Source: Micromonospora citrea (lineage in GTDB: Bacteria > Actinomycetota > Actinomycetes > Mycobacteriales > Micromonosporaceae). From it: a DNA stretch of 64,000 bases. The notes under the pieces were generated by a model that did no database searches, had not been told where the DNA came from, and worked only from the letters and a program-made list of their open reading frames with translations. Position 1 is the stretch's first letter; every line of letters begins with the position of its first letter. The position numbers and the translations under genes are program-made. Location: the NCBI RefSeq assembly GCF_900090315.1, contig NZ_FMHZ01000002.1:1342501-1406500 (forward strand). The letters are read 5' to 3'. This document shows positions 8,186-47,290 of this stretch, piece after piece.

Positions 8186-8245
8186 GCTGTCGAGCTGAAT
8201 CGTCTACGACATCGGCTGAATCGTCTACGACATCAGCTCGACAGC
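8186..8245. repeat. Dispersed palindromic element, copy A (compact form)
   Basis: A 60-bp element bounded by 13-bp perfect inverted arms (GCTGTCGAGCTGA at 8186-8198; its complement at 8233-8245). Between and overlapping them lie two direct copies of the 19-bp core TGAATCGTCTACGACATCA (the first ending in G), one after the other with almost no spacer. The core recurs near 17.75, 39.04 and 47.27 kb. No ORF is associated. Confidence 0.85.
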
Positions 8246-8463
8246 GCGCGAGCGAGCCACCCGGGGGCCGACCCACGGACGACGGCACGACAGGCGCAAC
8301 CGGTCCGCACCAGCTCGACAGCGCGCGATCGAGCCACCCGGGGGCCGACCCACGGACGACGGCACGACAGGCGCAACCGGTCCGCACCAGCTCGACAGCG
8401 CGCGATCGAGCCAGCCGAGGGGCGACCCGCGGACGACGGGACGACAGGCGCAACCGGTCCGCC
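8234..8463. repeat. 77-bp tandem repeat, three copies
   Basis: Units start at 8234, 8311 and 8388, each opening with CAGCTCGACAGCGCGCG. The first two are almost identical and the third is diverged. The opening bases are the right arm of palindromic element copy A, so the arm has been amplified with its flank. Confidence 0.9.
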
Positions 8464-8708
8464 CTCGACGCGGGCCGCCGGTCCCGTCCCTGGCCCGCCT
8501 GCCCCCCGGACCCGTCCGTCCCCGGCCCACGCACCCTGACCGACCCGCCCCGGCCGTGCGCGCCCTCCGGCCCGCCGCCGGCCCGTACGCGCCCTCCCCC
8601 CACCCCGGCCCGTGCGCGCCCTCACGCCCGTCTCGCGGCCGGGAACCGGTTCAACTCGACGCAGGCGGGTAGCCCGTCCAAGGACGGCACGAGGAGGGGC
8701 GACGGGAC

Positions 8709-9893
8709 ATGAAGGCACTGACCTGGCAGGGCAAGCGGGACGTACGGGTGGAGGACGTGCCCGATCCGCGCATCGAGGAGCCGACCGACGCGATCGTCCG
8801 GATCACGTCGACCGCGATCTGCGGCTCCGACCTGCATCTCTACGAGGTGCTCGGGCCGTTCCTCAAGCCCGGCGACGTCCTCGGGCACGAACCGATGGGC
8901 GTCGTCGAGGAGGTCGGCCCGGGAGTGACACGGCTCAAGCCGGGCGACCGGGTCGTGGTGCCGTTCAACATCTCCTGCGGCTCCTGCTGGATGTGCGAAC
9001 GGAAGCTCTACGCCCAGTGCGAGACCACCCAGGTCACCGCGCAGGGCAAGGGCGCCGCGCTGTTCGGCTACACCTCGCTGTACGGCTCGGTTCCGGGCGG
9101 GCAGGCCGAGTACCTGCGGGTGCCGCACGCCCAGTTCGGCCCGATCAAGGTGCCCGACACCGGGCCCGACGAGCGCTGGCTCTACCTGTCCGACATCCTG
9201 CCGACGGCGTGGCAGGCGGTGAAGTACGCCGACACCCCGCGCGGCGGCACCCTCGCCGTCTTCGGGCTGGGGCCGGTCGGCCAGTTCTGCGCCCGCATCG
9301 GCCGCCACCTCGGCGCCGACCGCGTGATCGGGCTGGACCTGGTTCCGGAGCGGCTGGCGATGGCCCGCCGGCACGGCATCGAGGTGCTCGACGTCAGCAA
9401 GCTGGACAACGTGCCGGACGCGCTCATCGACCTGGTCGACGGGCGCGGCCCCGACGCGGTGATCGACGCGGTCGGCATGGAGGCGCACGGCGCGCCCCTC
9501 GGCAAGCTCGCCCAGACCGCCGCCGGGCTGCTGCCCGACAAGCTCGCCCAGACCATGACCGACAAGGTCGGCGTCGACCGGCTCGTCGTGCTCAAGGCCG
9601 CGCTCAAGGCCGTCCGGCGCGGCGGCACCGTCTCGATCTCCGGCGTGTACGGCGGCGAGGTCGACCCCATGCCCCTGATGGAGATGTTCGACCGGGGCGT
9701 CCAGTTGCGGATGGGGCAGTGCCACGTGCGCCGCTGGACCGACGAGATCGTCCCGCTGCTCTCCGACGACGCCGACCCGCTGGGCGTGGCGGACCTGCGC
9801 ACCCACCGGGTGCCGCTGGCGCAGGCTCCGCAGGCGTACGAGATGTTCCAGAAGAAGCAGGACGGCTGCGTCAAGGTCGTGCTCGAGCCGTGA
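8709..9893 (+). CDS. Zinc-dependent alcohol dehydrogenase (formaldehyde dehydrogenase-like)
   Basis: Medium-chain dehydrogenase/reductase, 394 aa, predicted to oxidise an alcohol or aldehyde adduct with NAD(P). Catalytic zinc ligands C38 and H60/E61 (GHEPMG) are present. The structural zinc lobe is complete with C90, C93, C96 and C104. The Rossmann motif is FGLGPVGQF. The insert after about residue 115 and the C-terminal region resemble the glutathione-independent formaldehyde dehydrogenase branch (FdhA/threonine-dehydrogenase-like), but the substrate is not certain. The start ATG has a strong upstream GAGGAGGGG. The stop overlaps the following SDR gene by 4 bp, so the two are probably co-expressed. 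Confidence 0.9.
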   Translation: MKALTWQGKRDVRVEDVPDPRIEEPTDAIVRITSTAICGSDLHLYEVLGPFLKPGDVLGHEPMGVVEEVGPGVTRLKPGDRVVVPFNISCGSCWMCERKLYAQCETTQVTAQGKGAALFGYTSLYGSVPGGQAEYLRVPHAQFGPIKVPDTGPDERWLYLSDILPTAWQAVKYADTPRGGTLAVFGLGPVGQFCARIGRHLGADRVIGLDLVPERLAMARRHGIEVLDVSKLDNVPDALIDLVDGRGPDAVIDAVGMEAHGAPLGKLAQTAAGLLPDKLAQTMTDKVGVDRLVVLKAALKAVRRGGTVSISGVYGGEVDPMPLMEMFDRGVQLRMGQCHVRRWTDEIVPLLSDDADPLGVADLRTHRVPLAQAPQAYEMFQKKQDGCVKVVLEP

Positions 9894-10834
9894 GCCGGAC
9901 GGTGGTCGTCACCGGCGCGAGCAGCGGGATCGGCCGGGCTGCGGCCCGGATGTTCGCCGCGCGCGGGGACCGGCTGGTCCTCGCCGCCCGGTCCCCCGGC
10001 ACCCTCGCCGAGGTCCGCGACGAGTGCCGGGCCGCGGGCGCGCAGGTGCTGGACGTGCCCGTCGACATCACCGTCGAGGGCGCGCCGGCGGCGCTGGCCG
10101 ACGCGGCCGTCGAGCGGTTCGGCGGGATCGACGTCTGGGTGCACACGGCGGCGGTGATGGTCTACGGCCGGTTCGAGGAGACCCCGCAACGGGTCTTCGA
10201 GCACGTCGTGCGCACCGACCTGCTGGGCGCCGCCGCCGTGGCCCGGGCGGCGCTGGAGCGCTTCCGGGCGGCCGGCGGCGGCACGCTGGTCCTGACCGGT
10301 TCGGTGCTCGGGCACATCACCGCGCCCTACCTGAGCGCCTACGTGGTCAGCAAGTGGGGGTTGCAGGGGCTGACCCGGGTGTTGCAGCAGGAGGCCCGGG
10401 AGACGCCGGGCGTGCACGTCTGCATCGTCAACCCGGGCAGCGTGGACACCCCGGTCTACCAGCGGGCCGCGAACTACCTGGGCCGGACCGGCCGCCCGCC
10501 GCTGCCGGTCGCCACGCCCGAGCGGGTGGCGCGGGCCGTCGTGGACTGCGCGGATCGGCCCCGCCGGGAGGTGTCGGTGGGCCGGGCCAACGTGGTCATG
10601 CGCGTCGGCTTCACCGCCCTGCCCGGTGTCTACGACGCGCTCGTCGGGCCGCTGATGCGACTGGCCGGGCTGACCGACCGCCCGGTGGCGCCGCACGACG
10701 GGGTGGTGTTCGCGCCGGATCCGGCCAGCGCGGCCGTGCGCGGCGGTTGGCTGCCCGACCTGGGTCGGGTGGTCCGGGCCGTCGGTGGCCTCCCCGGGCC
10801 CGTCCTCGCGGCGGCCCGGAAACGGCCCCGGTGA
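9890..10834 (+). CDS. Short-chain dehydrogenase/reductase (SDR)
   Basis: NAD(P)-dependent oxidoreductase, 314 aa, starting at a GTG that overlaps the preceding stop. It has the classical SDR signature: TGASSGIG at residues 8-15, catalytic S138, Y151 and K155 (YVVSK), and NPGSVDTP after the active site. The C-terminal tail beyond residue 230 is longer than in minimal SDRs and may give a membrane-associated segment (VMRVGFTALPGVYDALV), as in other 300-residue SDRs. Coupling to the zinc dehydrogenase suggests a two-step alcohol/carbonyl conversion. The substrate is unknown. Confidence 0.9.
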   Translation: MSRTVVVTGASSGIGRAAARMFAARGDRLVLAARSPGTLAEVRDECRAAGAQVLDVPVDITVEGAPAALADAAVERFGGIDVWVHTAAVMVYGRFEETPQRVFEHVVRTDLLGAAAVARAALERFRAAGGGTLVLTGSVLGHITAPYLSAYVVSKWGLQGLTRVLQQEARETPGVHVCIVNPGSVDTPVYQRAANYLGRTGRPPLPVATPERVARAVVDCADRPRREVSVGRANVVMRVGFTALPGVYDALVGPLMRLAGLTDRPVAPHDGVVFAPDPASAAVRGGWLPDLGRVVRAVGGLPGPVLAAARKRPR

Positions 10835-10920
10835 CCGGTTTCACGGGCCGCCGAGATGGCTCACTTCGCCTAGGGTGGTCGGCCGGGAGACATTCCGGCC
10901 CACCACGACGGGAGAGACGA

Positions 10921-11934
10921 TTGACCATCCGGGTGAACCGCAGGACCGCGCTGGGACTCGGCACGGTGGCCACCGCCGGCACGGTACTCGGCGCCGCCAC
11001 ACCGGCGTCCGCCGCCTCCGACGTCACCGAACCGGCTCCGACCACACCCCAGCAGGCGGCCCGCCGGGTCGCCGCCAGCTACGCCCGGCAGACCGAGGAG
11101 GCCGGCGGCAACTGGCAGGCCTACGTCAGCGTCGCCGACCCGGCCGGCGAGCCGGTGGTGGCGGTGGCCGACGAGCCGGACCGGCGGATCGAGGCGTACA
11201 GCGTCAACAAGATCGCGGTGGCGGCGGCCGTGCTGGACAAGGTCGACCGAGGGCTGCTGACGCTCGACCAGCGGGTCGAGGTCACCGCCGCGATCGTGGT
11301 GCCCGGCGGCGACGGCATGTTCAGCCTCGACGGGGCGTACCCGAGCTTCGTGACCCTCGGCCACGTGCTGGCCAACCTGCTGACCGTCTCCGACGACACG
11401 GCGGTGCGGCTGTGCGGCCTGGTCTGCCCCGCCGCCGAGCTCAACCAGATCCTGCGGGACAAGGGCTTCCCGAACACGCAGGTGCAGCCGGTGGCCAACC
11501 CGAACCGGTTCTTCCTCGGCACCAGCACCCCCCGCGAGACGCACGACCTGCTGCGCGCGCTGGTGGGCGGCACGCTGCTCTCGCCGGCCGCCACGGCGTT
11601 CGTGCTGCGGCAGTTGCGCGCCCCCGTCGCGTTCACCGACGGCATCCGGCGCGTCATGTCCTCGACGCAGCGGGCCAGGATCGCCACGAAGGCCGGCTGG
11701 TTCGCCGACGCCCGCCACGAGGCCGGGGTGATCTTCGACGCGGCGGGCGCGCCCGTGCTGACGTACGCCCTCTTCGCCGACGGCCAGGCGGGCGCCGACG
11801 ACTTCGGCGCCACCCACCCGGCGGTCGAGGCCCGGGCCCGGATGGGCCGGCGCTTCCTCGCTGCGGTCGACCGCCTCACGGGCACCGGCATCACCCACCG
11901 ACCGGCGGTGCAGCGGCCCAGCAACGGCGGCTGA
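10921..11934 (+). CDS. Tat-exported class A beta-lactamase-like serine hydrolase
   Basis: Penicillin-binding/beta-lactamase fold, 337 aa. The TTG at 10921 has a GGGAGAG upstream; a GTG 12 bp later is an alternative. The N-terminus has a twin-arginine signal (NRRTALGLG, then a hydrophobic stretch and PASAAS cleavage region). Active-site elements are SVNK (S94, K97) and SDD (157-159, in place of SDN). The third motif reads KAG (257-259) rather than KTG, and ELN at 173-175 may correspond to the ExxLN region. The changed second and third motifs make efficient beta-lactam hydrolysis doubtful. A peptidase/esterase-like or weak lactamase role is equally possible. It stands 87 bp after the SDR and is probably separately transcribed. 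Confidence 0.85.
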   Translation: MTIRVNRRTALGLGTVATAGTVLGAATPASAASDVTEPAPTTPQQAARRVAASYARQTEEAGGNWQAYVSVADPAGEPVVAVADEPDRRIEAYSVNKIAVAAAVLDKVDRGLLTLDQRVEVTAAIVVPGGDGMFSLDGAYPSFVTLGHVLANLLTVSDDTAVRLCGLVCPAAELNQILRDKGFPNTQVQPVANPNRFFLGTSTPRETHDLLRALVGGTLLSPAATAFVLRQLRAPVAFTDGIRRVMSSTQRARIATKAGWFADARHEAGVIFDAAGAPVLTYALFADGQAGADDFGATHPAVEARARMGRRFLAAVDRLTGTGITHRPAVQRPSNGG

Positions 11935-11968
11935 GCGACGCGAACCGCGCCATCTCGGCCCACGCGGC

Positions 11969-12064
11969 GCGGTGGCGCGGTGGCGCGGTGGCGCGGTGGC
12001 GCGGTGGCGCGGTGGCGCGGTGGCGCGGTGGCGCGGTGGCGCGGTGGCGCGGTGGCGCGGTGGC
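11969..12064. repeat. 8-bp tandem repeat (GCGGTGGC) x 12
   Basis: Twelve perfect copies in 96 bp between the beta-lactamase-like gene and the next hydrolase gene, with a further partial unit. The 8-bp period shifts frame every unit, so all three frames remain open and create spurious ORFs. Copy number is probably variable by replication slippage. Confidence 0.95.
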
Positions 12065-12171
12065 GCGGATCCCGGCGCGGGTGGCCCCGACCCGTCGGGG
12101 CCGCCCGACCGCCGGCAGCCCCGGCGAGGGCCGGGCTACCGTGTACGACGGGACACGGCGGAGGGACGGCG

Positions 12172-13317
12172 ATGGGCGCACCAGCGGAACGCACGGGACT
12201 CGACCGGGCGCTCGGGCGCCGGCTGCGCGGGGCGGCGGGGCTGGCCGCGCTGGCCGGGCTCGCGTGGGTCGCCCGGGACGTGCCGGCGGCGCTCGGCGGG
12301 CGGCTCGCCGGCGCGCGGGCGGAGCGGGCGGCGCGCTCGCCGCAGTTCCGCGACGGCGCCTTCCGCAACCCGGGCGGCACCCGCTCGATGGCGGGCGCCC
12401 CCGACCGCGACCTGATCCGTGAGCTGATCTTCGGCAAACAGAAGCGCCGCCCCAGCGCGCCGGTGCCGCTGCTGCGCCCCGGTGCCGCGCCGACCGCCGA
12501 CGCCGCGCGCGAACTGAACGTCGTCTGGTACGGCCACGCCTCCGCGCTGATCGAGATCGAGGGGCGCAAGGTGCTGCTCGACCCGGTGTGGAGCGAGCGG
12601 TGCTCCCCGTCGACGCTGGTCGGCCCGCGTCGCCTGCACGAGCCGCCGGTCCGCCTCGACGAGCTGCCCCCGGTCGACGCGATCCTCATCTCGCACGACC
12701 ACTACGACCACCTGGACATGGCGACCGTCCAGGCGCTGACCGCCCTGCAGTCGGCGCCGTTCCTGGTGCCGCTCGGGGTGGGCGCGCACCTGGACCGCTG
12801 GGGCGTGCCGGCGACGCGGATCGTCGAGCTGGACTGGTCGGAGAGCCACCGGGTGGCCGGGCTGGAGATCACCGCCACCGCCGCCCAGCACTTCTCCGGC
12901 CGGGGGTTGCGCCGCGACGGCACGCTGTGGAGCTCGTGGGTGGTGGCGGGCGCGCACCGGAAGGTCTTCTACACCGGCGACTCCGGCTACTTCGACGGCT
13001 ACGCCGAGATCGGCGAGCGGCACGGGCCGTTCGACGTCACGCTGATGCAGATCGGCGCGTACGACCGGGCCTGGCCGAGCATCCACATGTTCCCCGAGGA
13101 GGCCGTCGCCGCCCACCTCGACCTGCGCGGCGGGCTGCTCGTGCCGGTGCACTGGGCGACGTTCAACCTGGCCCTGCACGACTGGTCCGAGCCGGTGGAC
13201 CGGATCTGGGCCGAGGCGAAGGCCCGGGACGTACGGCTGGCCGTGCCCCGCCCCGGCGAGCGGGTGACGGTGGACGACCCGCCCGCCGTCGACGGCTGGT
13301 GGCAGGCCGTCGCCTGA
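12172..13317 (+). CDS. Metallo-beta-lactamase-fold hydrolase (NAPE-PLD/UlaG-like)
   Basis: 381 aa, predicted metal-dependent phosphodiesterase/hydrolase. The metal motif HxHxDH is SHDHYDH (H175, H177, D179, H180). Further ligands are expected at AAQHFSGRG, GDSGYFDGY and VHWATFNL. The N-terminal 100 residues, with NPGGTRSM and a hydrophobic stretch (AAGLAALAGLAWVA), match the layout of bacterial proteins related to N-acylphosphatidylethanolamine phospholipase D. A lipid-type substrate at the membrane is plausible but unproven. The start ATG has GGAGGG at a good distance. A longer in-frame extension upstream comes from the 8-bp repeat and is rejected. Confidence 0.87.
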   Translation: MGAPAERTGLDRALGRRLRGAAGLAALAGLAWVARDVPAALGGRLAGARAERAARSPQFRDGAFRNPGGTRSMAGAPDRDLIRELIFGKQKRRPSAPVPLLRPGAAPTADAARELNVVWYGHASALIEIEGRKVLLDPVWSERCSPSTLVGPRRLHEPPVRLDELPPVDAILISHDHYDHLDMATVQALTALQSAPFLVPLGVGAHLDRWGVPATRIVELDWSESHRVAGLEITATAAQHFSGRGLRRDGTLWSSWVVAGAHRKVFYTGDSGYFDGYAEIGERHGPFDVTLMQIGAYDRAWPSIHMFPEEAVAAHLDLRGGLLVPVHWATFNLALHDWSEPVDRIWAEAKARDVRLAVPRPGERVTVDDPPAVDGWWQAVA

Positions 13318-13369
13318 GGCGTGCGGAAGGGGCCACGTCGACGCCCGCGGTGGCGGCAGGGCCCTGCGG

Positions 13370-14881
13370 TCACAGTACGAAGGCGTCGGTCCAGAGCGCG
13401 CCGGAACGGCCCGACAGGGAGTCGAGCATGGCGACCGCCTGGCCGTCGGTGAGCTGGGCGACGAAGTCGACGATCGCCCGGCCGCGGGCCCTGCCGATCC
13501 GGTCCGGCGTACGCGGGTGCAGCTCCGCCTCGGCCAGCTCGACCAGGTCGTGCAGGCGGCGCGGCAGCCGGGACTCCTCCTCCGGGTCGAGCAGCCAGTC
13601 CAGCAGCGCCTCGACCAGGGTGCCCAGCAGCCGGGCCTGCCCGCGCTGGTGCAGGGCCAGGTCCGGCCGGGCCAGCACGAAGCGGTGGTGGACGAACTTG
13701 AGCACCTGCACCTCGTGCCACTGGGCCGGGGCGAGCAGCACGTGGCCGGAACGCACCGACGGCCGCTCGACCACCGTGATCGCGTCGACGAACCGGGTGG
13801 TCCAGCGGGCCGAGAAGCGGGCCACGTACTGCTCCGCCTCGATGGAGCCGTCGAAGGGCATGGCCAGCAGCCCCTCCACCAGCTCCTCGCGGACGTGCTC
13901 GACGGCGGCGGCGAACGCCTCGTCGTCGGCGACCCAGGCGTCCTTGCGGTGCAGCTGCCGACGCAGCCGCTCGATCGCCGACCCGGGCCGGCGAGCCGCA
14001 GCGGCCAGCGCGGCGTCGGTGATGGCCCGGTAGTGCCCGCTCTCGCGCTGCCACGCCATCAGCTCGGCGGCCACCGCGCCCTGCTGGAGCACCCCGACGC
14101 GGTAGAAGTCCTCCACGTCGTGGATCGCGTACGCGATGTCGTCGGCGGTGTCCATCACCGACGCCTCGACGGTCTGCTGCCAGTCCGGGATCCGGCCGAC
14201 GAACGGCTCCCGGGCCTGCCGCAGGTCGTCGACCTCAGTCCGGTACGCCCCGAACTTCGACGAGCCGCTGCCCGGGTCGTCCGGTGGCGGGGTGGCACCG
14301 CGCGGCGGCGGGTCCATCAGCCGGGGGTGCGGGTCGGGGTGGTCCAGCCGCGTCCAGGGATACTTCAGCATGGCCGCGCGGACCGCCGCCGTCAGGTCCA
14401 GGCCGGTGGTCGCCGCGCCGCGGATCTCGGTGCTGGTGACGATGCGGTACGACTGGGCGTTGCCCTCGAATCCGTCGGTGAGTCCCAGCCGCTGCCGGGC
14501 CAGCCGGTCGAGCACCCGCTCCCCCAGGTGCCCGAACGGCGGGTGGCCGAGGTCGTGCGCGAGGGCGGCGGCCTCCACCACGTCCGGGTCGCAGCCGCCC
14601 AGTTTCTCCAGCAGGTCGCCGTGCTCGCCGTCGGCGGTGAGCCGCTCGGCGATCGCCCGGGCCACCTGGGCGACCTTGAGGCTGTGCGTCAGCCGGTTGT
14701 GCACCAGCAGGCCGGAGCCGCCGGGGCTGACCACCTGGGTCACGCCGTTGAGCCGGGCGAAGAACGGCGAGGCCACGATCCGGTCCCGGTCGGCCCGGAA
14801 GGGGCTGGCGGCGAGGTCGCCGAGGGCCCGGGCGCTGCCGCCGAAGAGCCGCCGGGCCCGCGGGTCCGCGGGAGGTTCCAT
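13370..14881 (-). CDS. dgt: Deoxyguanosinetriphosphate triphosphohydrolase-like protein
   Basis: HD-domain dNTP triphosphohydrolase, 503 aa, releasing triphosphate from dNTPs and so shaping nucleotide pools. The N-terminal part has RLTHSLKV (H66) and the HD pair [14 protein letters not shown] (H109-D110). The downstream pattern (YDFEGNAQS-like region, ILKYPW-like segment, then [19 protein letters not shown]) is that of the actinobacterial type. The start is chosen at the ATG 14881 ([11 protein letters not shown]), as conserved sequence begins close after it; the frame stays open upstream without conserved content. Divergent from tex with 220 bp between the starts. Confidence 0.93.
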
Positions 14882-15101
14882 GATCGCCACGCTAGCGCAG
14901 TGCGGGCCGGGACGGCGCACGCCCGCCGCTTCCGCAGCCGCGACGTCGCGGGCGAGGCGGGGCAAGGGTCCCTCCGCCCACCTGCGGCGACGACGAGTGC
15001 CCTTCCTTAACATCCGGCGCGCCGGGGCGGGGGCGGCGACGGGCGTCGGTGCGGGCCGGCAGAATGCACGGCGGAACCCACACCGAAGGCGGATCGAGAT
15101 C

Positions 15102-17516
15102 GTGACCCTCTCTGTTCATCAGCGGATCGCCGAGGAACTCGGCGTCGCCGAGCGTCAGGTACGGGCGGCCGTCGAGCTGCTCGACGGCGGCGCCACCGTG
15201 CCGTTCATCGCCCGGTACCGCAAGGAGGCCACCGGCCTGCTCGACGACACCCAGCTGCGCACCCTGGAGGAGCGGCTGCGCTACCTGCGCGAGCTGGACG
15301 AGCGGCGCGCGGCGGTGCTGGAGTCGATCCGCGGCCAGGGCAAGCTCGACGAGGCCCTGGAAGCGCAGATCATGGCGGCCGAGTCGAAGTCCCGCCTGGA
15401 GGACATCTACCTGCCCTACAAGCCCAAGCGTCGGACGCGGGCGCAGATCGCCCGCGAGGCCGGGCTGGAGCCGCTCGCCGAGTCGCTGCTGGCCGACCCG
15501 GGGCAGGACCCGCGCCAGGCCGCCGCCGGCTTCGTGGACGCGGACCGGGGCGTCGCCGATCCCGCCGCCGCCCTGGAGGGCGCCCGCGCCATCCTCATCG
15601 AGCGGTTCGCCGAGGACGCCGACCTGATCGGCACGCTGCGCGAGCAGATGTGGTCGCGGGGCCGGCTGGTCTCCCGCGTACGCGACGGGCAGGAGGCGGC
15701 GGGCGCGAAGTTCGCCGACTACTTCGACTTCGCCGAGCCTTACCCGAAGCTGCCCTCGCACCGCATCCTGGCCATGTTCCGGGGCGAGAAGGAGGGCGTG
15801 CTCGACCTGACGATGGAGCCCGAGGAGGCCGGCGAGGCCGACGCCGCCCCCGCCGGCCCCAGCCGCTACGAGGCGGCGATCGCCAGCCGTTTCGGCATCA
15901 CCGACCAGGGGCGGCCGGCCGACCGGTGGCTGGCCGACACGGTGCGCTGGGCGTGGCGCACCCGGATCCTCATCCACCTCGGCGCCGACCTGCGGATGCG
16001 GCTGTGGCAGGCGGCCGAGGAGGAGGCGGTCCGGGTCTTCGCCACCAACCTGCGGGACCTGCTGCTCGCCGCGCCGGCCGGCGCCCGGCCCACGATGGGG
16101 CTGGACCCGGGCCTGCGTACGGGGGTGAAGGTCGCCGTCGTGGACGCCACCGGCAAGGTGGTCGCCACCGACACGATCTACCCGCACGAGCCGCGCCGGC
16201 AGTGGGACGCCTCGATCGAGACCCTCGCCCGGCTGGCCGGGGCGCACGGCGTCGAGCTGGTCGCCATCGGCAACGGCACCGCCAGTCGGGAGACCGACAA
16301 GCTGGCCGGCGAGCTGATCAAGCGGTACCCGCAGCTCAACCTGACGAAGGTGGTGGTCTCCGAGGCAGGCGCGTCGGTCTACTCCGCCTCCGCGTACGCG
16401 TCGCAGGAGCTGCCCGGGCTGGACGTCTCGCTGCGCGGGGCGGTCTCCATCGCGCGCCGCCTGCAGGACCCGCTCGCCGAGCTGGTCAAGATCGACCCGC
16501 GCTCGATCGGCGTCGGCCAGTACCAGCACGACCTGTCCGAGGTGAAGCTCTCCCGGTCGCTGGACGCGGTGGTCGAGGACTGCGTCAACGCGGTCGGAGT
16601 CGACGTCAACACCGCCTCCGCGCCGCTGCTGACCCGGGTGTCGGGCATCGGCGCCGGGCTGGCGGAGAACATCGTGCTGCACCGCGACGCCAACGGGCCG
16701 TTCCGCACCCGGGCCGAACTGAAGAAGGTCTCCCGGCTCGGGCCGAAGGCGTTCGAGCAGTGCGCGGGCTTCCTGCGCATCCCGGGCGGCGACGACCCGC
16801 TGGATTCCTCCAGCGTGCACCCGGAGGCGTACCCGGTGGTGCGCCGGATCCTCGCCAGCACCGGGCAGGACGTGCGCTCGCTCATCGGCAAGAGCACCAT
16901 CCTGCGCGGGCTGCGTGCCACCGACTTCGTCGACGACACCTTCGGCCTGCCCACCGTCACGGACATCATCGCCGAGCTGGAGAAGCCGGGCCGCGACCCG
17001 CGGCCGGAGTTCCGCACCGCCACCTTCGTCGAGGGCGTGGAGAAGATCAGCGACCTGACGCCGGGCATGGTGCTGGAGGGCGTGGTCACCAACGTGGCCG
17101 CGTTCGGCGCGTTCGTGGACGTCGGGGTGCACCAGGACGGCCTCGTGCACGTCTCGGCCATGTCCCGGACCTTCGTCAAGGACCCGCGCGAGGTGGTCAA
17201 GTCCGGCGACGTGGTGAAGGTCAAGGTGCTCGACGTCGACGTACCCCGCAAGCGGATCTCGCTCACCCTCCGCCTCGAGGACGACGCGGAGGCGGGCGCG
17301 GGGCGCGGCGGTCAGGGCGCTCCCGGTGGCGGTCGCGGGCAGGGCGGCCAGTCGGGGCACGGCGGCGGACGTGGCCGGGGTGCCCAGGCCGGCGGGCGCG
17401 GCGGTCAGGGCGGGCAGGGCGGCGGGCGCGGCGGGGCGGCGCGACAGGGCCGCGGCGGAGCGGGGCCGGCGAACGACGCCATGGCAGACGCGCTGCGTCG
17501 GGCCGGACTGGCCTGA
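15102..17516 (+). CDS. tex: Tex-family RNA-binding transcription accessory protein
   Basis: 804 aa. The sequence runs from an N-terminal helical region ([26 protein letters not shown]) through a YqgF/RNase H-like domain starting near residue 329 ([16 protein letters not shown]) and helix-hairpin-helix repeats ([28 protein letters not shown]). It ends with an S1 RNA-binding domain (about 655-725, [17 protein letters not shown]) and a glycine/arginine/glutamine-rich tail of about 75 residues. Tex proteins bind nucleic acids and influence transcription. The start is a GTG at 15102, where homology begins. The Gly-rich tail (RGG-like) is longer than in many Tex proteins and is probably disordered and RNA-binding. 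Confidence 0.95.
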
Positions 17517-17518
17517 CA

Positions 17519-17738: not shown

Positions 17739-17820
17739 CTTTCGAGCTGATGTCGTAGACGATTCAGGCAGCGACGAGCCCGGCCGCCACCCTGATGTCG
17801 CAAACGATTCAGCTCGAAAG
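17739..17820. repeat. Dispersed palindromic element, copy B
   Basis: Left arm CTTTCGAGCTGA (17739-17750) and its exact inverse TCAGCTCGAAAG at the right (17809-17820). Core 1, TGATGTCGTAGACGATTCA (17748-17766), and core 2, TGATGTCGCAAACGATTCA (17793-17811), lie as direct repeats separated by 26 bp. The same plan occurs in copy C; copy A is a compact form in the opposite orientation. Confidence 0.85.
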
Positions 17821-17870
17821 CATCATTCGAGCTTCCCGCCCGCGGCACGCCGAGCACCACAGCTTGCGGG

Positions 17871-18652: not shown

Positions 18653-18658
18653 CCGGGG

Positions 18659-21669: not shown

Positions 21670-21673
21670 CGGC

Positions 21674-38816: not shown

Positions 38817-39027
38817 CCGGCCCCGCGCGCCGGTCCCGGCCCGCCACCAGGCGCCGCTCGCTTGGTTCCCACCGCCAGACGCCCCTCGCCCGGCCCACCG
38901 CCAGGCCGATTCGAGCCCGCCACCAACGACACTGCCCGCCGAGTCACCGGCCCTCGCTTGCCCGGCGGGTCAACAGGTCGCGCCCGCCGGCTCGTCCGCC
39001 CGCCACGGCCGACTCGTCTTCGGCACC

Positions 39028-39158
39028 CTTTCGAGCTGATGTCGTAAGCGACTCACGCGTCTGTATCGGCCGTACGACACGGTTCGGGATCCGCACGGGT
39101 ACCGAGAGGCCGCCGCCCCGGACCGTGGTCCGATGTCGCAAACGACTCAGCTCGAAAG
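39028..39158. repeat. Dispersed palindromic element, copy C (long spacer)
   Basis: Left arm CTTTCGAGCTGA (39028-39039) and right arm TCAGCTCGAAAG (39147-39158) are exact inverses. Core 1 is TGATGTCGTAAGCGACTCA (39037-39055) and core 2 is CGATGTCGCAAACGACTCA (39131-39149), in direct orientation, 75 bp apart. Both cores share ACTCA where copy B has ATTCA, so the two cores within a copy resemble each other at this position. Confidence 0.85.
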
Positions 39159-39230
39159 GGGCCGGGGAAGGGTGCGCCCGCCGACGGCGTGCAAATTTCC
39201 GCAGCCGGCGGCCGGCAGACGGCGACAGCC

Positions 39231-39330
39231 GGCGGCGACAGGCGGCGGCCGGCGGCGACAGGCGGCGGCCAACGGCGACAGGCGGCGGCCAGCGGCGACA
39301 GGCGGCGGCCGGCGGCGACAGGCGGCGAGG
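39231..39330. repeat. 20-bp tandem repeat (GGCGGCGACAGGCGGCGGCC) x 5
   Basis: Five units at 39231, 39251, 39271, 39291 and 39311, with one or two changes each and degenerate units before. It starts 73 bp right of palindromic element copy C. Confidence 0.9.
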
Positions 39331-39390
39331 CAGCCCTCAGAGGACGGACGGTGAGCGAACGGCGGGCGGGCGTGAGCCGAGGGTGGACGG

Positions 39391-39570
39391 GCAGGCCGAG
39401 GGGCGGACGAGCGGACCGAGGGGCAGACCGGCAGGCCGAGGGGCAGACCGGCAGGCCGAGGGGCAGACCGGCAGGCCGAGGGGCAGACCGGCAGGCCGAG
39501 GGGCAGACCGGCAGGCCGAGGGGCAGACCGGCAGGCCGAGGGTGGACGGGCGGACCAAGGGGCGGACGAG
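39391..39570. repeat. 20-bp tandem repeat (GCAGGCCGAGGGGCAGACCG) x about 9
   Basis: Units every 20 bp from 39391; those at 39431, 39451, 39471, 39491 and 39511 are identical, the outer ones diverged. The pattern of perfect centre and decayed edges suits recent expansion by slippage. It ends 16 bp before the pgm stop codon. Confidence 0.93.
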
Positions 39571-39586
39571 CGGGCGCGGACGGTTC

Positions 39587-41229
<1,643 letters not shown>

Positions 41230-41233
<4 letters not shown>

Positions 41234-42462
41234 GGTTCCACCTTCTGTCCCTTGCCGATGACCACGATGCCGTTGTCGGAGACGGTGTAGCGCTGCCGGT
41301 CCTTCTCCAGGTCGACGCCGATCTCGGCGCCCTCGGGCACGATCACGTTCTTGTCGAGGATCGCCCGGCGGACGACCGCGTGCCGGCCGATGTCCACGCC
41401 CTCCATCAGCACCGCGCCGTCCACGTGCGCCCAGGAGTGCACCTTCACCTTGGGCGAGACGATCGAGTTCTCCACGAGCGAGCCGGAGATCACCGCGCCG
41501 GGCGAGACCATCGAGGCGACGGCCCGGCCGACCCGTTCGCCCCACTGGTGGACGAACTTCGCCGGCGGGTAGGTGAGCTGCCCGGTGTAGATCGGCCACT
41601 CGAAGTTGTAGAGGTTGAACACCGGGTGCACGTTGATCAGGTCCATGTGGGCGTCGTAGAAGGAGTCGAGCGTCCCCACGTCGCGCCAGTAGCCGCGGTC
41701 CCGGTCGGTGCTGCCCGGCACCTCGTTGTCGCGGAAGTCGTAGACGTTGGCCTCGCCGCGCTCGACCAGCATCGGGATGATGCTGCCGCCCATGTCGTGC
41801 TTGCTGGTCTTGTCCTCCGCGTCGCGCTCGACCGCCTCGCAGAGCGCCTTCGTGGTGAACACGTAGTTGCCCATCGAGGCGTAGATCTGGTCGGGGGCGT
41901 CGGGCAGGCCGACCGCGTCGGTGGGCTTCTCGCGGAACGCCCGGATCCGCCGGCCGTCCTCGCCGACCTCGATGACGCCGAACTGGTCGGCCGTCGACAG
42001 CGGCTGCCGGATGCCGGCCACGGTGACGCCGGCCCCGGAGGCGATGTGGTCCTCCACCATCTGCCGCGGGTCCATCCGGTAGATGTGGTCGGCGCCGAAG
42101 ACGATCACGTGGTCGGGCTGCTCGTCGTGGATGAGGTTGAAACTCTGGTAGATCGCGTCGGCGGAGCCGGCGAACCACCACGGGCCACGCCGCTGCTGCG
42201 CCGGCACCGGCGTGACGTAGTTCCCGAGCAGGGTCGACATCCGCCACGTCTTGGTGATGTGCCGGTCCAGCGAGTGCGACTTGTACTGGGTCAGCACGAC
42301 GATCTTCAGATAGCCGGCGTTCGCCAGGTTGGAGAGGACGAAGTCGACCATGCGGTACATCCCGCCGAACGGGACGGCCGGCTTGGCCCGGTCCGTGGTG
42401 AGCGGCATGAGGCGCTTGCCCTCTCCGCCGGCCAGGACGATCGCGAGCACCTTGGCAGCCAT
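41230..42462 (-). CDS. glgC: Glucose-1-phosphate adenylyltransferase
   Basis: 410 aa, makes ADP-glucose from Glc-1-P and ATP, the committed step of alpha-glucan synthesis. N-terminal nucleotidyltransferase signature [23 protein letters not shown], substrate loops [10 protein letters not shown] and [13 protein letters not shown], and a C-terminal left-handed beta-helix ([20 protein letters not shown]). Usually allosteric. ATG at 42462. Divergent from the glycogen synthase-type gene with only about 70 bp between starts, so a shared regulatory region is likely. Confidence 0.96.
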
Positions 42463-42533
42463 GTCCCGACGCTAACCATCCGCCGGGGACTTCACCACTC
42501 GTACGGGCACACTCCTGCACTAGGGTGCGGGGG

Positions 42534-43736
42534 ATGACGGATTCCGCACACCTTCGCGTCGATCTGCTGACCCGGGAGTACCCGCCGGAGGTGTACGGCG
42601 GGGCCGGCGTGCACGTGGAGTACCTGGCCCGGGAGCTGCGCCGCCTCGCCGACGTGCGGGTGCACTGCTTCGGCGCGCCACGCACCGAGCCGGGCGTCAC
42701 CGCGTACGCCGAGCCGGCGAGCCTGACCGGCGCGAACGCCGCGCTGCGGACGATGGGCGTGGACCTGGAGATGGCGGCGGCGTGCGCCGGCACCGACGTG
42801 GTGCACAGCCACACCTGGTACGCGAACCTGGCCGGGCACGCCGCGAAGCTGCTGCACGGGGTGCCGCACGTGGTGACGGCGCACAGCCTGGAGCCGCTGC
42901 GGCCGTGGAAGGCCGAGCAGCTCGGCGGCGGCTACGCCCTCTCCTCGTGGTGCGAGCGCACGGCGTTCGAGGCCGCCGACGCGGTGATCGCGGTCAGCGA
43001 GGGGATGCGCCGCGACGTGCTGGCGGCCTATCCGGCGGTGGACCCGGACCGGGTCCGGGTGGTGCACAACGGCATCGACACCGACGAGTACTCCCCGGAC
43101 CACGGCACGGACGTGGTCCACCGGCTCGGCATCGACCCGGCCCGGCCGAGCGTGGTCTACGTGGGGCGGATCACCCGGCAGAAGGGGCTGCCCTACCTGC
43201 TGCGGGCGGCGCGCGAGCTGCCGGGCGACACCCAGCTGGTGCTGCTGGTCGGCGCGCCCGACACCCCGGAGATCGCCGCCGAGGTGGAGGGGCTGGTGGC
43301 CGAGCTGCGGGCGACCCGCTCGGGCGTGGTCTGGGTGGCCGAGATGCTGCCCAAGCACGAGGTCATCCAGGTGCTCACGCACGCCACCGTCTTCGTCTGC
43401 CCGTCGGTCTACGAGCCGATGGGCATCGTGAACCTGGAGGCGATGGCCTGCGAGACGGCGGTGGTGGCCACCGCGACCGGCGGCATCCCCGAGGTGGTGG
43501 TCGACGGCACGACCGGCCTGCTGGTGCCGATCGAACAGGCCGACGACGGCAGCGGCCGACCGCTGCACCCGCAGCGGTTCGTGGCGGACCTGGCGGCGCG
43601 GATCAACGAATTGCTGGCCGACCCGGACCGGACCGCCGCGTTCGGCGTCGCGGGGCGGCGGCGCGCGGTGGAGCACTTCTCCTGGGACGCCATCGCCGCG
43701 CGCACCCTGGAGCTGTACCGCTCCCTGTCGAAGTAG
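42534..43736 (+). CDS. glgM: GT4 alpha-glucan synthase, GlgM-type (ADP-Glc: alpha-maltose-1-phosphate synthase)
   Basis: 400 aa GT4 enzyme. N-terminal [21 protein letters not shown] holds the glycine loop, then [12 protein letters not shown], and in the C-terminal domain [17 protein letters not shown] and [23 protein letters not shown] (E-x7-E). This is the short actinobacterial class annotated as GlgA but shown in mycobacteria (GlgM) to make maltose-1-phosphate from ADP-Glc and Glc-1-P. Presence of glgE and glgC nearby supports that function. Start ATG 42534; a GTG nine bases upstream is possible. Confidence 0.92.
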
Positions 43737-43766
43737 GCCGGACGGCACCGCCCGCCCCGGCGCCGT

Positions 43767-43781
43767 ATCGCCCCGGGCGAT
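43767..43781. terminator. Small palindrome after glgM
   Basis: ATCGCCC-C-GGGCGAT is a perfect 7-1-7 palindrome, 31 bases after the glgM stop. Too short to be sure of termination; it could also be a protein-binding site. Confidence 0.3.
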
Positions 43782-43889
43782 CTCCCCGGCCCTTTGATGA
43801 TCACCCCACGCGCAGTTCCGCGCATAACTGTCGATGGTGCGCGAAGAACGAAAAATTGGGCGATCGTTGCCTATGATTGCGATTCGGGC

Positions 43890-44093
43890 TCATTCATCAT
43901 CGCGTGGCGGAATCGAGCGGACCGACACCTCGGCGGACACGATGGGGTCGACGGCCAGGACGCCGAAGTCGCGGGCGTCCGCGAGCGCGTCTCCGGACCA
44001 GCCCGCCCAGCGGGGATCGTCGGTGAACACGTCCAGCAGCACGTTCGTGTACACCAGCGTGGTGGCGGTGTCGGCTGGCCGGTGCGAGAGCAC
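43890..44093 (-). pseudogene. Remnant of a VapC-type PIN-domain toxin, N-terminal half
   Basis: 67 codons carrying the N-terminal half of a PIN ribonuclease: TLVYTNVLLDVFTDDPRWAGW, then ARDFGVLAVDPIVSAEVSVR. It then runs into an unrelated end and stops; about 75 residues with the other acidic residues are missing. The first catalytic aspartate (D of the D-T-N motif) is tyrosine here (Y-T-N). It is therefore inactive twice over. No antitoxin start lies directly upstream in the correct phase. The DNA just left of it (43800-43900) is AT-richer than the chromosome average. Confidence 0.75.
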
Positions 44094-44158
44094 CCCTGGC
44101 CGCGACCCGGCGCGTGTTCGTCGCGGTGGTGTCCCCGCCGCGCCGGTACGATGCCGGC

Positions 44159-44713
44159 ATGAGCGCAGAGGCGGTTGGCAGATCGATGCCCCCCGTGGTG
44201 ACGCTCGACGATCTGACCGCGATGATGGCCGCGGACGAGCATCACCGGTACGAGATCAGCCCTGAGGGAGTTCTCTCGATCATGCCGCCGCCGGGATATG
44301 CCCATGCGATCATCGCGACCCGGCTCATGGTGTGGCTCGCCCAGGGCGGTGTGCCGGCGGACCGCATCGCCCAGGCGGTCGGGCTGCGCATCCCGGGCCG
44401 CAGTGGCGGGGTCGGCGGGCGCATCCCCGATCTGGTTGTCTGGAGCAAGACCCAGTCCGACGGGGTGTGGCTGCCGGCCGGTGACGTCCTTCTCGTGGTC
44501 GAGATCGTCTCACCCGGGTCCGAGGGCATCGACACGGTGACCAAGCGCGGCGAGTACGCCACGGCCGGCATCCCGCAGTACTGGATCGTGGAGCAGGACC
44601 CGGCACAGACTGTCACGATGCACACCTTGGACGGCGAGGACTACGGCGTACGGGCACGCATGCCGCTCGCATGGCTGCTCAACACCAGCCCCGCAGAGCA
44701 CGACCTCGGCTGA
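44159..44713 (+). CDS. Uma2-family (DUF820) putative endonuclease
   Basis: 184 aa PD-(D/E)xK-fold protein. Motifs: YEISPEGVLSIMPPPG at the start, RIPDLVVW (Asp), then VVEIVSPGSEGIDTVTKRGEYATAGIPQYWIV containing the Glu, Lys and AGIPQYW signature. The fold places it with restriction-enzyme-like nucleases, but Uma2 proteins are abundant in actinomycetes and cyanobacteria and their role is unknown. The ATG at 44159 is preferred; no strong ribosome-binding site is seen. It lies between the two broken vapC remnants, on the opposite strand. Confidence 0.85.
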   Translation: MSAEAVGRSMPPVVTLDDLTAMMAADEHHRYEISPEGVLSIMPPPGYAHAIIATRLMVWLAQGGVPADRIAQAVGLRIPGRSGGVGGRIPDLVVWSKTQSDGVWLPAGDVLLVVEIVSPGSEGIDTVTKRGEYATAGIPQYWIVEQDPAQTVTMHTLDGEDYGVRARMPLAWLLNTSPAEHDLG

Positions 44714-44774
44714 CCGGAGACACGCCGAGACGCACAGATCGTGGCACCCGGGACCCCACCTGGCCTGGTCGGGC

Positions 44775-45089
44775 TCAGCCTGGCGGGACGATCAGGTGAA
44801 GCCTGGGGAAGTAACTGCGGTAGCGGGCGCCGTCGCGAGTGAGCAGCCGATACCCACACACCGCGGCGGGCGCTCCGATGTAGAAGTCGGCGATCGGTGA
44901 CCGCTTGGCCCCTCCCTGGGAGCGGTATCTGGCGTAGGCCTTCCTCGCCAGGAACCCCCTGGTCTCCGCGCCACTCACCCGGACGATTCGCAGCGCACCG
45001 CCCTCCTCCGCGACGTCGACCTCGTGCAGCCCGTGTCAGGCCCGCATCGCGGCCGGGATCGTGACCTGGCCCTTGCTGTTGAGTTTCAT
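44775..45089 (-). pseudogene. Decayed vapBC: antitoxin start, nonsense codon, and fused toxin C-terminus
   Basis: One reading frame carries four pieces in order. First is the AbrB-type antitoxin start MKLNSKGQVTIPAAMRA. A TGA stop follows at 45038-45036. Next comes the rest of a VapB core (HGLHEVDVAEEGGALRIVR, then VSGAETRG). Then, with no gap, comes the C-terminal part of a PIN toxin (FLARKAYARYRSQGGAKRS, ADFYIGAPAAVCGYRLLTRD, YFPRLHLIVPPG). The antitoxin's C-terminus and the toxin's first 80 or so residues are gone, so a deletion joined the two genes in frame, and a nonsense mutation cut the antitoxin. Confidence 0.78.
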
Positions 45090-45160
45090 GACGCTTCCCC
45101 CTACCACGTAATGCGAACGACACGTGTCGGAGGTGGATTCGGGCAGGCTGCGGGGCAGCC

Positions 45161-46381
45161 TCAGGTGACGTGCAGGGCGGCGGCGAGGCGGGCCAGGCCG
45201 GCGGGAGCGGCGGCGTACCGGGCCACGGTGGCGACCAGGTCGCGCGCCGCCGGCCGGTCGTGCACCTCGCTGCGCGCGGTGCGTTCGGCGTCCAGCAGCG
45301 CCCGCCCCGCCCGGGCCATGTCGCCGGCGAGAGCGTGTACGCGGGCCACGTCGAGCAGGTACGCCGCCCGGTGCTCGGGCGGCAGCCACCGCCACTGCTC
45401 ACCGGAGACGAGGCGATCGTGCCGTACCGTCGCCGCCCGCACGTCTCCGACGGCGGCCTCGGCCACCACCCGCGCCGCCTCGACCGACGCCCGGCCGAAG
45501 CCGCCGCCGACCGCTGCCGCTGCCTCGGCCTGGTCGAGCAGGGCGGCCAGCCGGCGCTCGTCTCCCCGGCCGGCAGCGGCGAGAGCGGCCTGGAGCAGCA
45601 ACGTCACGCGCAGCGACGGAGCACCGTCACCGCCCGGCGGCGGGGCACCCTCGGCCGACTCGCTCTGCGACAGGTCGCCACCGGCCGCCTCGCGCGGTGG
45701 AAGTCGGCGGGCGGCCACGAGCGCCGTCTCCATCGCGGAGCGCCGCCGGCCGACGGCCCGCAGCGCCTGGCTCAGCGGTACGGTGGCGACGCCCGCCAGC
45801 CGCGCGTCGTCCGTGGCCAGCGCCACGGCCATCCCCCGGTCGGCGGCCAGCCACGCCAACTCTCCCTGACCGACCTTGACCAGCACCAGGGCGACGAGCC
45901 CGTACGCGGCCACCAGCAGCTCGTCGGCGACCGCCAGTTCGTCGGCGACCCGGCCGGGGCTGGCGACCCGCGCCTCGCGGGCGGCGTCGAGCAGCCCGGG
46001 CAGCAGGCCGAGCAGGACCGGGTACCGGGCGTGCCGGTAGCTCTGCTCGGCATGGTCGAGGCGGGCCCGCACCTGCGCGACGTCGGGCGGCCGGGACGAC
46101 GCCTCGACGTGGTAACGGGCCAGGGCGGCCCGGACCCGCGCCACACCGGCGACGGCGACGTCCGGTTGCCCGACCCGCTCCGCGAGCAGCACCTCCAGGT
46201 CGATCCGCAGCGCCTCGGCGACCTCCCGCAGGTTGGACATCCGGTCCAGCGGGCGTACCCCGCGCTCGACCTTGTCCACCCAGCTCTTCGACTTGCCGAG
46301 GCGGTCGGCGAACTGCTGCTGGGTCATGTTGCGCCGCACCCGCCACTGGGCGACCCGCCGGCCCACCGGCAGGCCGGTCAC
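45161..46381 (-). CDS. XRE-family transcriptional regulator with TPR-like C-terminal region
   Basis: 406 aa. An N-terminal helix-turn-helix domain covers residues 5-65 (VAQWRVRRNMTQQQFADRLG, KSKSWVDKVERGVRPLDRMS). It is followed by about 330 residues of alanine/leucine-rich helices resembling TPR repeats (for example LLPGLLDAAREARVAS, HALAGDMARAGRALLDAERTAR). This plan is common among actinobacterial XRE regulators whose C-termini are thought to bind ligands or partners. The GTG at 46381 is 16 bp after the stop of the small membrane protein gene, so the two are co-transcribed. Confidence 0.85.
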   Translation of the reverse strand: MTGLPVGRRVAQWRVRRNMTQQQFADRLGKSKSWVDKVERGVRPLDRMSNLREVAEALRIDLEVLLAERVGQPDVAVAGVARVRAALARYHVEASSRPPDVAQVRARLDHAEQSYRHARYPVLLGLLPGLLDAAREARVASPGRVADELAVADELLVAAYGLVALVLVKVGQGELAWLAADRGMAVALATDDARLAGVATVPLSQALRAVGRRRSAMETALVAARRLPPREAAGGDLSQSESAEGAPPPGGDGAPSLRVTLLLQAALAAAGRGDERRLAALLDQAEAAAAVGGGFGRASVEAARVVAEAAVGDVRAATVRHDRLVSGEQWRWLPPEHRAAYLLDVARVHALAGDMARAGRALLDAERTARSEVHDRPAARDLVATVARYAAAPAGLARLAAALHVT

Positions 46382-46397
46382 CGCCGGCCCGTCCCGC

Positions 46398-46595
46398 TCA
46401 CCGCAGGATCCCGACCGCGACGAGCACGAGTACGAGCAGCGCGACCGTGAGGCCGTAGGCGTACTGGCGACGGGTGAGCGGCGCGCGCTGCGGGCGGGGC
46501 GGACAGGGCACCTGGTCCCCGTCGGGCTGTCGAGCGCGGGCACCCGGGACCGGGTGCGCCGCCGGCAGCGGCCCGTCAGGCGGACGCTCCTGCAT
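46398..46595 (-). CDS. Small single-helix membrane protein
   Basis: 65 aa with a Pro/Arg-rich N-terminal half and one transmembrane helix at the C-terminus (YAYGLTVALLVLVLVAVGIL). No family is recognised. A perfect GGAGG precedes the ATG, a better signal than most genes here. Its stop is 16 bp before the XRE regulator start, so they form a two-gene operon. A role in sensing with the regulator is only a guess. Confidence 0.72.
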   Translation of the reverse strand: MQERPPDGPLPAAHPVPGARARQPDGDQVPCPPRPQRAPLTRRQYAYGLTVALLVLVLVAVGILR

Positions 46596-46760
46596 CGTGA
46601 GCCTCCTTGCAGGTGAGTACGAAGCACGTGGTCAGGGCGAGGTACGCGAAGCGTGCGGTGTGGGTCGTGGGCGGATCGGGCGAAGAGGACCACCGCGTTC
46701 TCCCGCCCGGCCCCGGGGCGCTCCGCTGCTGACGAGAGAACCCCTGCCATCCCCAACTTA

Positions 46761-46775
46761 GAAGGCACTGCCTTC
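46761..46775. promoter_or_regulatory. Perfect 15-bp palindrome, probable operator
   Basis: GAAGGCA-C-TGCCTTC lies in the 254-bp spacer between the leftward membrane-protein/XRE operon and the rightward mini-GntR gene, with AT-richer flanks (AACTTA before, ACAGTCAAC after). A repressor dimer site for the GntR-like or XRE protein is the natural reading. Confidence 0.6.
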
Positions 46776-46849
46776 ACAGTCAACAGAGCATGCACGGCGC
46801 GTCACTCCGGGTGCGAAGATCGGAGCGCTGACGAGAGGTGGCGCCACCC

Positions 46850-47077
46850 ATGCCGCAAGCACCGCTGTACGAGCAGATAATCGCCGACATCACGGCCTCA
46901 ATCCGCGCGGGCACCCTTCAGCCCGGCGACAAGCTGCCGTCTATCGCCGAGATGCGCGAGCAGTACCAATCGAGCGCATGGCCCGTGCGATACGCGCTGC
47001 GGATCCTGGAGGAGAGAGGCTGGATCGTGACCCGGCAGGGCAAGGGCTCGTTCGTGGCACCCGAACCACCCGCCTGA
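46850..47077 (+). CDS. Mini GntR-family DNA-binding protein
   Basis: 75 aa consisting only of a GntR winged helix: YEQIIADITASIRAGTLQPG, then KLPSIAEMREQYQSSAWPVR and LEERGWIVTRQGKGSFV. The effector/oligomerisation domain of normal GntR proteins is absent. The residues match the HutC/YtrA side of the family. Start ATG 46850 with GAGAGG upstream. Such small forms occur in actinomycetes, often near XRE regulators; here it is divergent from one. It could compete for, or regulate at, the palindrome at 46761. Truncation of a longer gene is the alternative, but the stop is clean. Confidence 0.8.
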   Translation: MPQAPLYEQIIADITASIRAGTLQPGDKLPSIAEMREQYQSSAWPVRYALRILEERGWIVTRQGKGSFVAPEPPA

Positions 47078-47128
47078 ACTCCACCCTCCCGCCCCCTGGG
47101 CATAGCGGTCCAAGTCTCGGGACAAGCG

Positions 47129-47181
47129 GTAGACCTTGGCAGGAGCGGCCCTTGGCGGGGCCCTTTCCTACCAGGATCTAC
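47129..47181. terminator. Imperfect hairpin of the CTTGGTAGGAA type
   Basis: Left arm GTAGACCTTGGCAGGA, right arm TCCTACCAGGATCTAC, with a GGCCC/GGGCC-like inner stem. It begins 51 bases after the mini-GntR stop. A second, better paired example of the same element lies at 51768-51809, so this is a repeated terminator-like element. Confidence 0.6.
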
Positions 47182-47263
47182 GACGATCTGAGGCAACGGC
47201 AGGTCGTCGTCGGAATCCTCGTCATGAGCAGCGCGCTCCGTTGATCGGCCACGGCAGGCGTGC

Positions 47264-47290
47264 GAGTCGTTGACGACATCAGCTCGAAAG
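47264..47290. repeat. Dispersed palindromic element, copy D (half element)
   Basis: One core in reverse orientation (GAGTCGTTGACGACATCA, 47264-47281) joined to the right arm GCTCGAAAG (to 47290). The left arm and second core are missing. The remaining spacer before glgE (about 260 bp) has only a 17-bp tandem repeat and plain GC-rich sequence. Confidence 0.75.

Follow-up and report, generated by a model that had tools for sequence, protein, structure and literature searches.

Organization of the element in the window

A stretch of 64,000 nucleotides of the Micromonospora citrea genome (contig NZ_FMHZ01000002.1, positions 1,342,501 to 1,406,500; hereafter the window, numbered from its first letter), part of a 7.2-Mb genome in two contigs, carries four copies of a short palindromic element which recurs in the intergenic DNA of this genome. 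Genomes are denoted here by G-numbers (G000 is the present genome) and fetched stretches or loci by L-numbers, and all gene predictions come from our own gene caller. Copy A (8187..8244, minus strand) is the minimal two-core form, 58 bp in length, and consists of the arm CTGTCGAGC, a core, a 2-bp linker, a second core and an arm, with arms at 8187-8195 and 8236-8244, a right-type core at 8196..8214 (one base off the consensus) and a left-type core at 8217..8235. Copy B (17739..17820, plus strand), situated 222 bp downstream of a gene which we take to be Tex-like, has the arm CTTTCGAGC, a left core at 17748..17766, 26 bp of other sequence, a right core at 17793..17811 and an arm. Copy C (39028..39158, plus strand) lies between convergent genes and has the same arm, CTTTCGAGC, with 75 bp between its left core at 39037..39055 and its right core at 39131..39149, the latter one base off the consensus. 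Copy D (47263..47290, minus strand) is a single left-type end, made of a core at 47263-47281 (one base off the consensus) and an arm at 47282-47290, for which no facing end was found.

None of the four copies overlaps a predicted gene, so the four intergenic places named in the preliminary description of this DNA all hold, as does its statement that D is a half and that A and D are reversed relative to B and C. Of the core spacings it gave, 26 bp (B) and 75 bp (C) are correct, while the 0 bp given for A measures 2 bp; its common core consensus fits four of the seven cores, the other three being off at one terminal base. The core pattern with up to three mismatches has eight matches in the window (the seven cores and a weak one at 52670), where 0.78 are expected from shuffles and none of 100 shuffles reached eight. 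As to the surroundings, three 77-bp tandem repeats adjoin copy A at 8231-8461, and since each contains a copy of the right arm (CAGCTCGACAGCG), the arm of copy A was drawn into a tandem duplication. Long GC-rich tandem repeats, noticed by eye, are located to the right of copy C at 39205-39560.

Copy number and anatomy

The preliminary description proposed that copies be counted genome-wide, and the 17-nt core GATGTCGYNNRCGAYTC has 56 exact matches in this genome, and 85 with at most one mismatch, compared with one in the reversed control. We fetched the surroundings of all exact matches outside the window and of most one-mismatch matches, leaving out five isolated ones (C2 423509, 898496, 1418331, 2672193 and 6660161). 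At the 37 places inspected, four in the window and 33 fetched, at least one end is present at 35 and two facing ends at 28; seven places have ends facing one way only (copy D, L031, L035, L036, L039, L040 and L058), and no end was found at L051 and L063. Two imperfect inverted ends of 28 bp make up a full copy, each end composed of a 9-bp arm and a 19-bp quasi-palindromic core, with the arms outermost. The consensus end is the arm CTNNNGAGC followed by the core TGATGTCGYNNRCGAYTCA, which can be written as TGA-T-GTCG-YNNR-CGAY-TCA; the arms are inverted, with CTGTCGAGC the commonest in this genome and variants present. The DNA enclosed by the ends ranges from nothing, in a single-core hairpin of 37 bp, to a stretch of about 2.15 kb that holds two genes; GC-rich repeats devoid of predicted genes account for most interiors. 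Most pairs in this genome are isolated and most have arms more than 100 bp apart. Of the 28 paired loci, 23 have direct cores, four have a left-left arrangement (L057, L059, L060 and L062) and one a right-right arrangement (L038), so that the orientation of the core within the arms is free.

The 93 elements listed from this and many other genomes comprise 11 single-core hairpins of 37 nt, 18 elements of 58-75 nt and 64 longer ones, four long loci being entered on both strands and L181 twice; agreement between the arms in this list is selected, because the left end was located through its match to the right arm. When the arm rule was relaxed and a near-strict core kept, 14 distinct single-core copies were found among the fetched loci, 11 of them with perfect arms. 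Three or more cores are present in L280 and L286, and multi-core arrays with repeated spacers in L033, L043, L044 and L046. Arms are perfect in 22 of 30 single-core or short elements and in 26 of 52 long ones, for which we claim no effect (Fisher p 0.06, and 0.29 excluding this genome). Abutted arms lacking a core, with one mismatch allowed, occur in 6 of 151 genomes and in 7 of 151 in the reversed control. Arm and core therefore look like one unit, and the idea that the arms are a pre-existing target palindrome was rejected.

Folding and genomic context

Copy A is predicted to fold as one hairpin of -33.5 kcal/mol as RNA (z -7.2). In copies A, B and C the predicted fold joins the two ends of the copy along their length, with z from -5.2 to -7.2 and, for C, on one strand only. 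The preliminary description saw two direct cores in each of these copies. They are direct, but, the core being nearly palindromic, they are also inverted, which is why a copy folds as one hairpin; the end is therefore most aptly described as an imperfect inverted repeat of 28 bp. Complementarity extends 2 nt past the 9-bp arm (z 3.6 and 2.9) and then ends. The 37-mer at L147 forms a predicted hairpin of -24.8 kcal/mol (z -6.4). Pairing was counted in 16 single-core copies, 15 of them distinct, including L219, L222, L223 (imperfect arms), L224 and L284. Among the 15 distinct copies, pairing covers 95.4% of cells, 12 changes are two-sided and none of 500 shuffles attains the covariation score; this count takes its structure from the same sequences, leaves relatedness in and draws for the most part on copies detected with patterns in which the inner stem is fixed. 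Four pairs show a two-sided change, a number reached by two of 500 shuffles; the count of pair types is unremarkable (73 of 500). With right arms shuffled within each genome, the observed complementarity was reached in 83 of 2000 shuffles for 82 elements with separately detected ends, and in 335 of 2000 for this genome. Arm compensation thus operates mainly between genomes and only weakly locus by locus, which is expected for co-evolution with a trans-acting factor or for spread from genome-specific copies.

The intergenic bias that the preliminary description proposed to test is evident in other genomes, where 70 of 73 clusters are clear of predicted genes; the set includes a few clusters from G025, the nearest relative among the genomes searched, and two single matches in other genera, which are two of the three exceptions. 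Of the 36 ends or pairs in this genome, four (L031, L036, L044 and L058) reach the border of a predicted gene. From a total of 108 clusters (36 here and 72 elsewhere) 32 lie between convergent and 14 between divergent genes, and the binomial p values for convergent excess and divergent depletion, 0.0005 and 0.001 against intergenic length and 0.018 and 0.014 against gap number, are optimistic because orthologous loci are among the clusters.

Strong hairpins with nearly complete pairing and covariation, several of them as single-core copies about 20-60 bp from predicted gene ends and often between convergent genes, could be bidirectional transcription terminators or hairpins of 3' untranslated regions. 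Inspection by eye, however, revealed no clear strand bias relative to neighbouring genes and no T-tract following the arm, many copies are hundreds of bp from genes, the wide separation of arms in most copies of this genome does not fit, and the locus-specific pairing of arms is weak, all of which makes this explanation improbable. An RNA element in general was rejected on the lack of clear strand bias, the weak within-genome arm pairing and the absence of Rfam matches at gathering score in the window. As a separate observation, in L065, L140, L145, L153 and L155 (compare L043 and L204), several of which are one orthologous locus, the right core ends 21 bp upstream of a predicted start codon and the arm about 12 bp upstream, and an arm so placed may supply a ribosome-binding sequence.

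Distribution among genomes and presence or absence at orthologous places

Micromonospora is a genus important for natural products, and as far as searched the family is confined to it. The exact 18-nt core is found in 25 of 61 genomes, which are this genome and 24 of 36 same-genus relatives, and in none of 24 from other families of the order; across the genus the number of exact cores per genome ranges from 0 to 51. Core plus arm with at most one mismatch is found in 23 of 38 same-genus genomes, with single matches in four of 162 genomes from other genera, and all 11 stretches that contain the strict single-core palindrome in GTDB contigs belong to Micromonospora. Ends are similar inside one genome and shift between genomes: the arm CTGTCGAGC is commonest here, CTTTGGAGC is found in G219 and G253, CTAGGGAGC in G006, and a different core in G025. 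From an arm-only gapped search we used the listed sequences and not the counts, since the matches were mostly coding-looking and control counts were similar in size. In G319 TCGAGC/GCTCGA arms surround a different palindrome, TGCTGGC...GGAGCGCTCC...GCCAGCA; of the eight places listed for this genome, five hold copies of 48 bp and two hold variants.

The comparison with G025 is the most detailed. The arm CTGTCGAGC is retained there at many loci, mostly with a different, TGCCCCGTCCATGGGGCA-like core (20 places among the matches listed), and at the places that correspond to seven loci of this genome (copy A, L042, L043, L046, L054, L056 and L057) this other core is present, as one end in the case of L046. 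The place of copy B has a diverged form of the present core type, and both core types occur together in L057 here and in L196 of G025. A scan for these two core types alone detected no end at the places of copies C and D, L055 and L045 in G025, nor in this genome at the places of L199, L194 (an unpaired end), L201 and L205 of G025. At the place of copy C the same two predicted genes are 12 bp apart in G025, compared with a 770-bp gap here. Among same-genus genomes with the respective gap cut out, end-like matches on the same strand, some well diverged, are present downstream of the Tex-like gene in 11 of 30, and a perfect arm pair is present at the place of copy A in two of 25. The preliminary description reasoned that orthologous copies conserved like ordinary untranslated regions, with no sign of mobility, would contradict a mobile element; ends are indeed conserved at some loci, but elsewhere an element present in one relative is not found in the next.

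The largest enclosed interior is that of L050, where two ends about 2.2 kb apart (2466-4676) surround a gene for an extracytoplasmic function (ECF) sigma factor and a second gene. Eight relatives were fetched for this place: in six the flanking genes meet without operon and without end, in G249 there is no operon and a short element is present, and one stretch (L304) is too short to tell. The end pair around the two-gene cassette is therefore specific to this genome when compared with the seven relatives with a full gap, and the operon is located elsewhere in G002 and G028.

Fixed ends and changing interiors

At two orthologous loci of the clade with arm CTTTGGAGC the ends persist while the interior, judging from the alignments, turns over. 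At L090 both ends are kept in the four species counted, with ends also in G004 and the right end in G024, and at L088 both are kept in five species and none was seen in G004 and G063. Over these two loci the mean identities are 0.86-0.97 for arms and cores, 0.56-0.81 for the 30 bp outside and 0.34-0.43 for the 30 bp inside, and only three of 16 interior pairs (G034/G029, G030/G002 and G002/G034) align with z above 3.

One explanation for this pattern, in line with the paired binding site for one dimeric protein that the preliminary description considered, is paired sites maintained by the host, to which a dimeric DNA-binding or nucleoid protein binds at both ends and loops or bridges the DNA, so that ends are conserved and spacing is free. 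The high identity of arms and cores against their surroundings, the free orientation of the core and the genome-specific variants of arm and core, which fit co-evolution with one protein, are in accordance with it. On the other hand, 12 of 36 same-genus relatives are without the exact core (a count that overlooks diverged cores), many loci differ in presence, and one complex is hard to square with spacings that range between 2 bp and about 2.15 kb, which leaves this explanation doubtful.

The same loci bring up cassette exchange, in which the cores would be sites of site-specific recombination: recombination between cores would drop the interior and leave the 37-bp single-core palindrome, and new DNA would enter at the core. 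Similarity drops at the inner core edge at both loci, in comparisons of species with about 92-97% identity in the flanking DNA, and the 14 distinct single-core forms, the multi-core arrays with repeated spacers and the ECF-sigma cassette missing from the same place in seven relatives would all fit. Against it are interiors that mostly consist of GC-rich repeats without genes and that share sequence in few paralogous pairs only (loci of this genome compared), the three of 16 interior pairs that still align and the lack of an integrase linked to the elements. Moreover, neutral turnover of unconstrained intergenic DNA predicts the same pattern, and we regard cassette exchange as unlikely.

In the paralogous pairs L055/L061 and L045/L047 likeness starts 10-11 bp outside the left arm; it stops about 41 bp outside the right arm in L045/L047 and continues into a duplicated gene in L055/L061. 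A gene for a C39-like peptidase is present near elements in three near-identical copies (L055 3516-4282, L059 1385-2145 and L061 1125-1889), about 97% identical over 767 bp to the L059 copy and each within about 1.1 kb of an element; it was considered as a transposase gene and rejected because of its product.

Comparison with known mobile repeats and interpretation

Miniature inverted-repeat transposable elements (MITEs) are non-coding, dispersed and have inverted ends. The present family resembles them in its dispersal, its 28-bp imperfect inverted ends and its window copies without an open reading frame, and it could thus descend by deletion from a DDE transposon bounded by these terminal inverted repeats. 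However, 75 elements tested for target duplications of 2-10 bp at offsets of 0-3 gave none (z below 2 throughout), the copies have no interior in common and no parent transposon was seen (DDE families were not searched), so that the MITE-like character considered in the preliminary description is largely refuted and such an origin very improbable. Ends of IS200/IS605 insertion sequences have subterminal hairpins with a bulged T and make no target duplication; both properties are shared here. In contrast to them, the core can take either orientation within the arms, which means that there is no single recognised strand, and Y1_Tnp (PF01797) has no match in G000, nor in G025 and G219. The one match, in G002, has no end in its scanned surroundings (L308).

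Repetitive extragenic palindromic (REP) sequences and bacterial interspersed mosaic elements include GTAG- and CGTC-tagged palindromes, those with CGTC being without a known transposase, according to PMC3733652. The same paper describes REP dimers of A. variabilis and H. neapolitanus within larger outer palindromes not found alone, and REP units in direct orientation as absent or under-represented; its main text makes no mention of Micromonospora. Measured against this account, our family is alike in being short hairpin DNA that is dispersed, intergenic, biased towards convergent or unidirectional gene pairs (the 32 convergent and 14 divergent clusters), often paired at variable distance and, as in some REP dimers, nested inside outer palindromes. 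Its 56 exact cores also agree with the definition of a REP as a palindrome of 20-40 bp in many intergenic copies. It differs in that its units are mostly in direct orientation and without a GTAG or CGTC tag on an 8-9-bp stem (no unpaired tag was seen by eye outside the core stem), and arms vary by genome. A REP with its REP-associated tyrosine transposase, the Y1 enzyme that accompanies GTAG REPs, was rejected for lack of a Y1 match in this genome. The dRS3 repeats, palindromes of about 20 bp which together with RS stretches of 30-160 bp make up neisserial intergenic mosaic elements (NIME) as outlined in PMC3898611, similarly bracket variable stretches. Compared with that outline, the dRS3 sequence is ATTCCC-N8-GGGAAT, and the Micromonospora family has tens and not hundreds of copies, mostly isolated pairs and not arrays interleaved with RS, with extra outer arms and no known phage integrase target. 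No description of such a family in Micromonospora was found in open-licence papers.

The dispersed palindromic REP-like element without an open reading frame of the preliminary description is thus borne out by 35 loci in this genome, by its intergenic location, by its restriction to the genus as searched and by differences in presence and absence. With confidence that is about even, we consider it a new REP/NIME-like family of short, non-autonomous palindromic end-pairs, specific to Micromonospora and with a putative trans-acting factor. Copies would spread, now or in the past, by means of a protein acting in trans, which would recognise the hairpin or site of the end and leave no target duplication, and some would be carried along by segmental duplications. 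The interior would then be free to expand, slip or take in other DNA, its turnover being passive.

Several results weigh against this REP/NIME-like family. The main doubt comes from ends which at some loci are conserved about like genes, keeping host-bound paired sites and cassette exchange alive; at L090 and L088 the conservation of arm plus core is roughly on a par with that of the flanking genes, which looks like constraint and not like idle remnants. No insertion junction could be read from present/absent pairs among the available species, since intergenic flanks do not align between them, and likeness in the paralogous pairs L033/L046 and L032/L050 reaches at least 35 bp beyond the left arm, which shows that the border at 11 bp does not hold for all pairs. 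No transposase or recombinase is tied to the elements in a search that covered Y1 only, other transposase families not being searched, and viral contigs have no match for GAGCTGATGTCGYNNRCGAYTCA. The missing target duplication, the lack of Y1 matches in three genomes and the optimistic context p values count on the same side.

A rather improbable extension of cassette exchange would make the paired ends the two sites of an integron-like exchange system. A protein would recognise the arm-plus-core ends, recombination at the 19-bp core would swap the enclosed DNA, including the ECF-sigma cassette of L050, the 37-bp single-core palindromes would be empty sites, and arm and core would co-evolve with the protein by species. 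Fixed ends around replaced interiors, together with an arm that is retained when the core changes across a whole genome, raise the question of what recognises the ends. Should a trans-acting enzyme be identified, it would represent an added route of intergenic turnover, and perhaps of gene capture, in high-GC bacteria, while in the case of a host protein the ends would be a chromosome-wide set of paired sites.

Other palindromic repeats

Near copy D, at 47130-47182, there is a second palindromic repeat of the type GATCTTGGCAGG...GGCCCC...CCTACCAGGATC, which is also present near the elements L039, L040, L057 and L196. Several more hairpin families are present in the intergenic DNA of the Micromonospora genomes compared.

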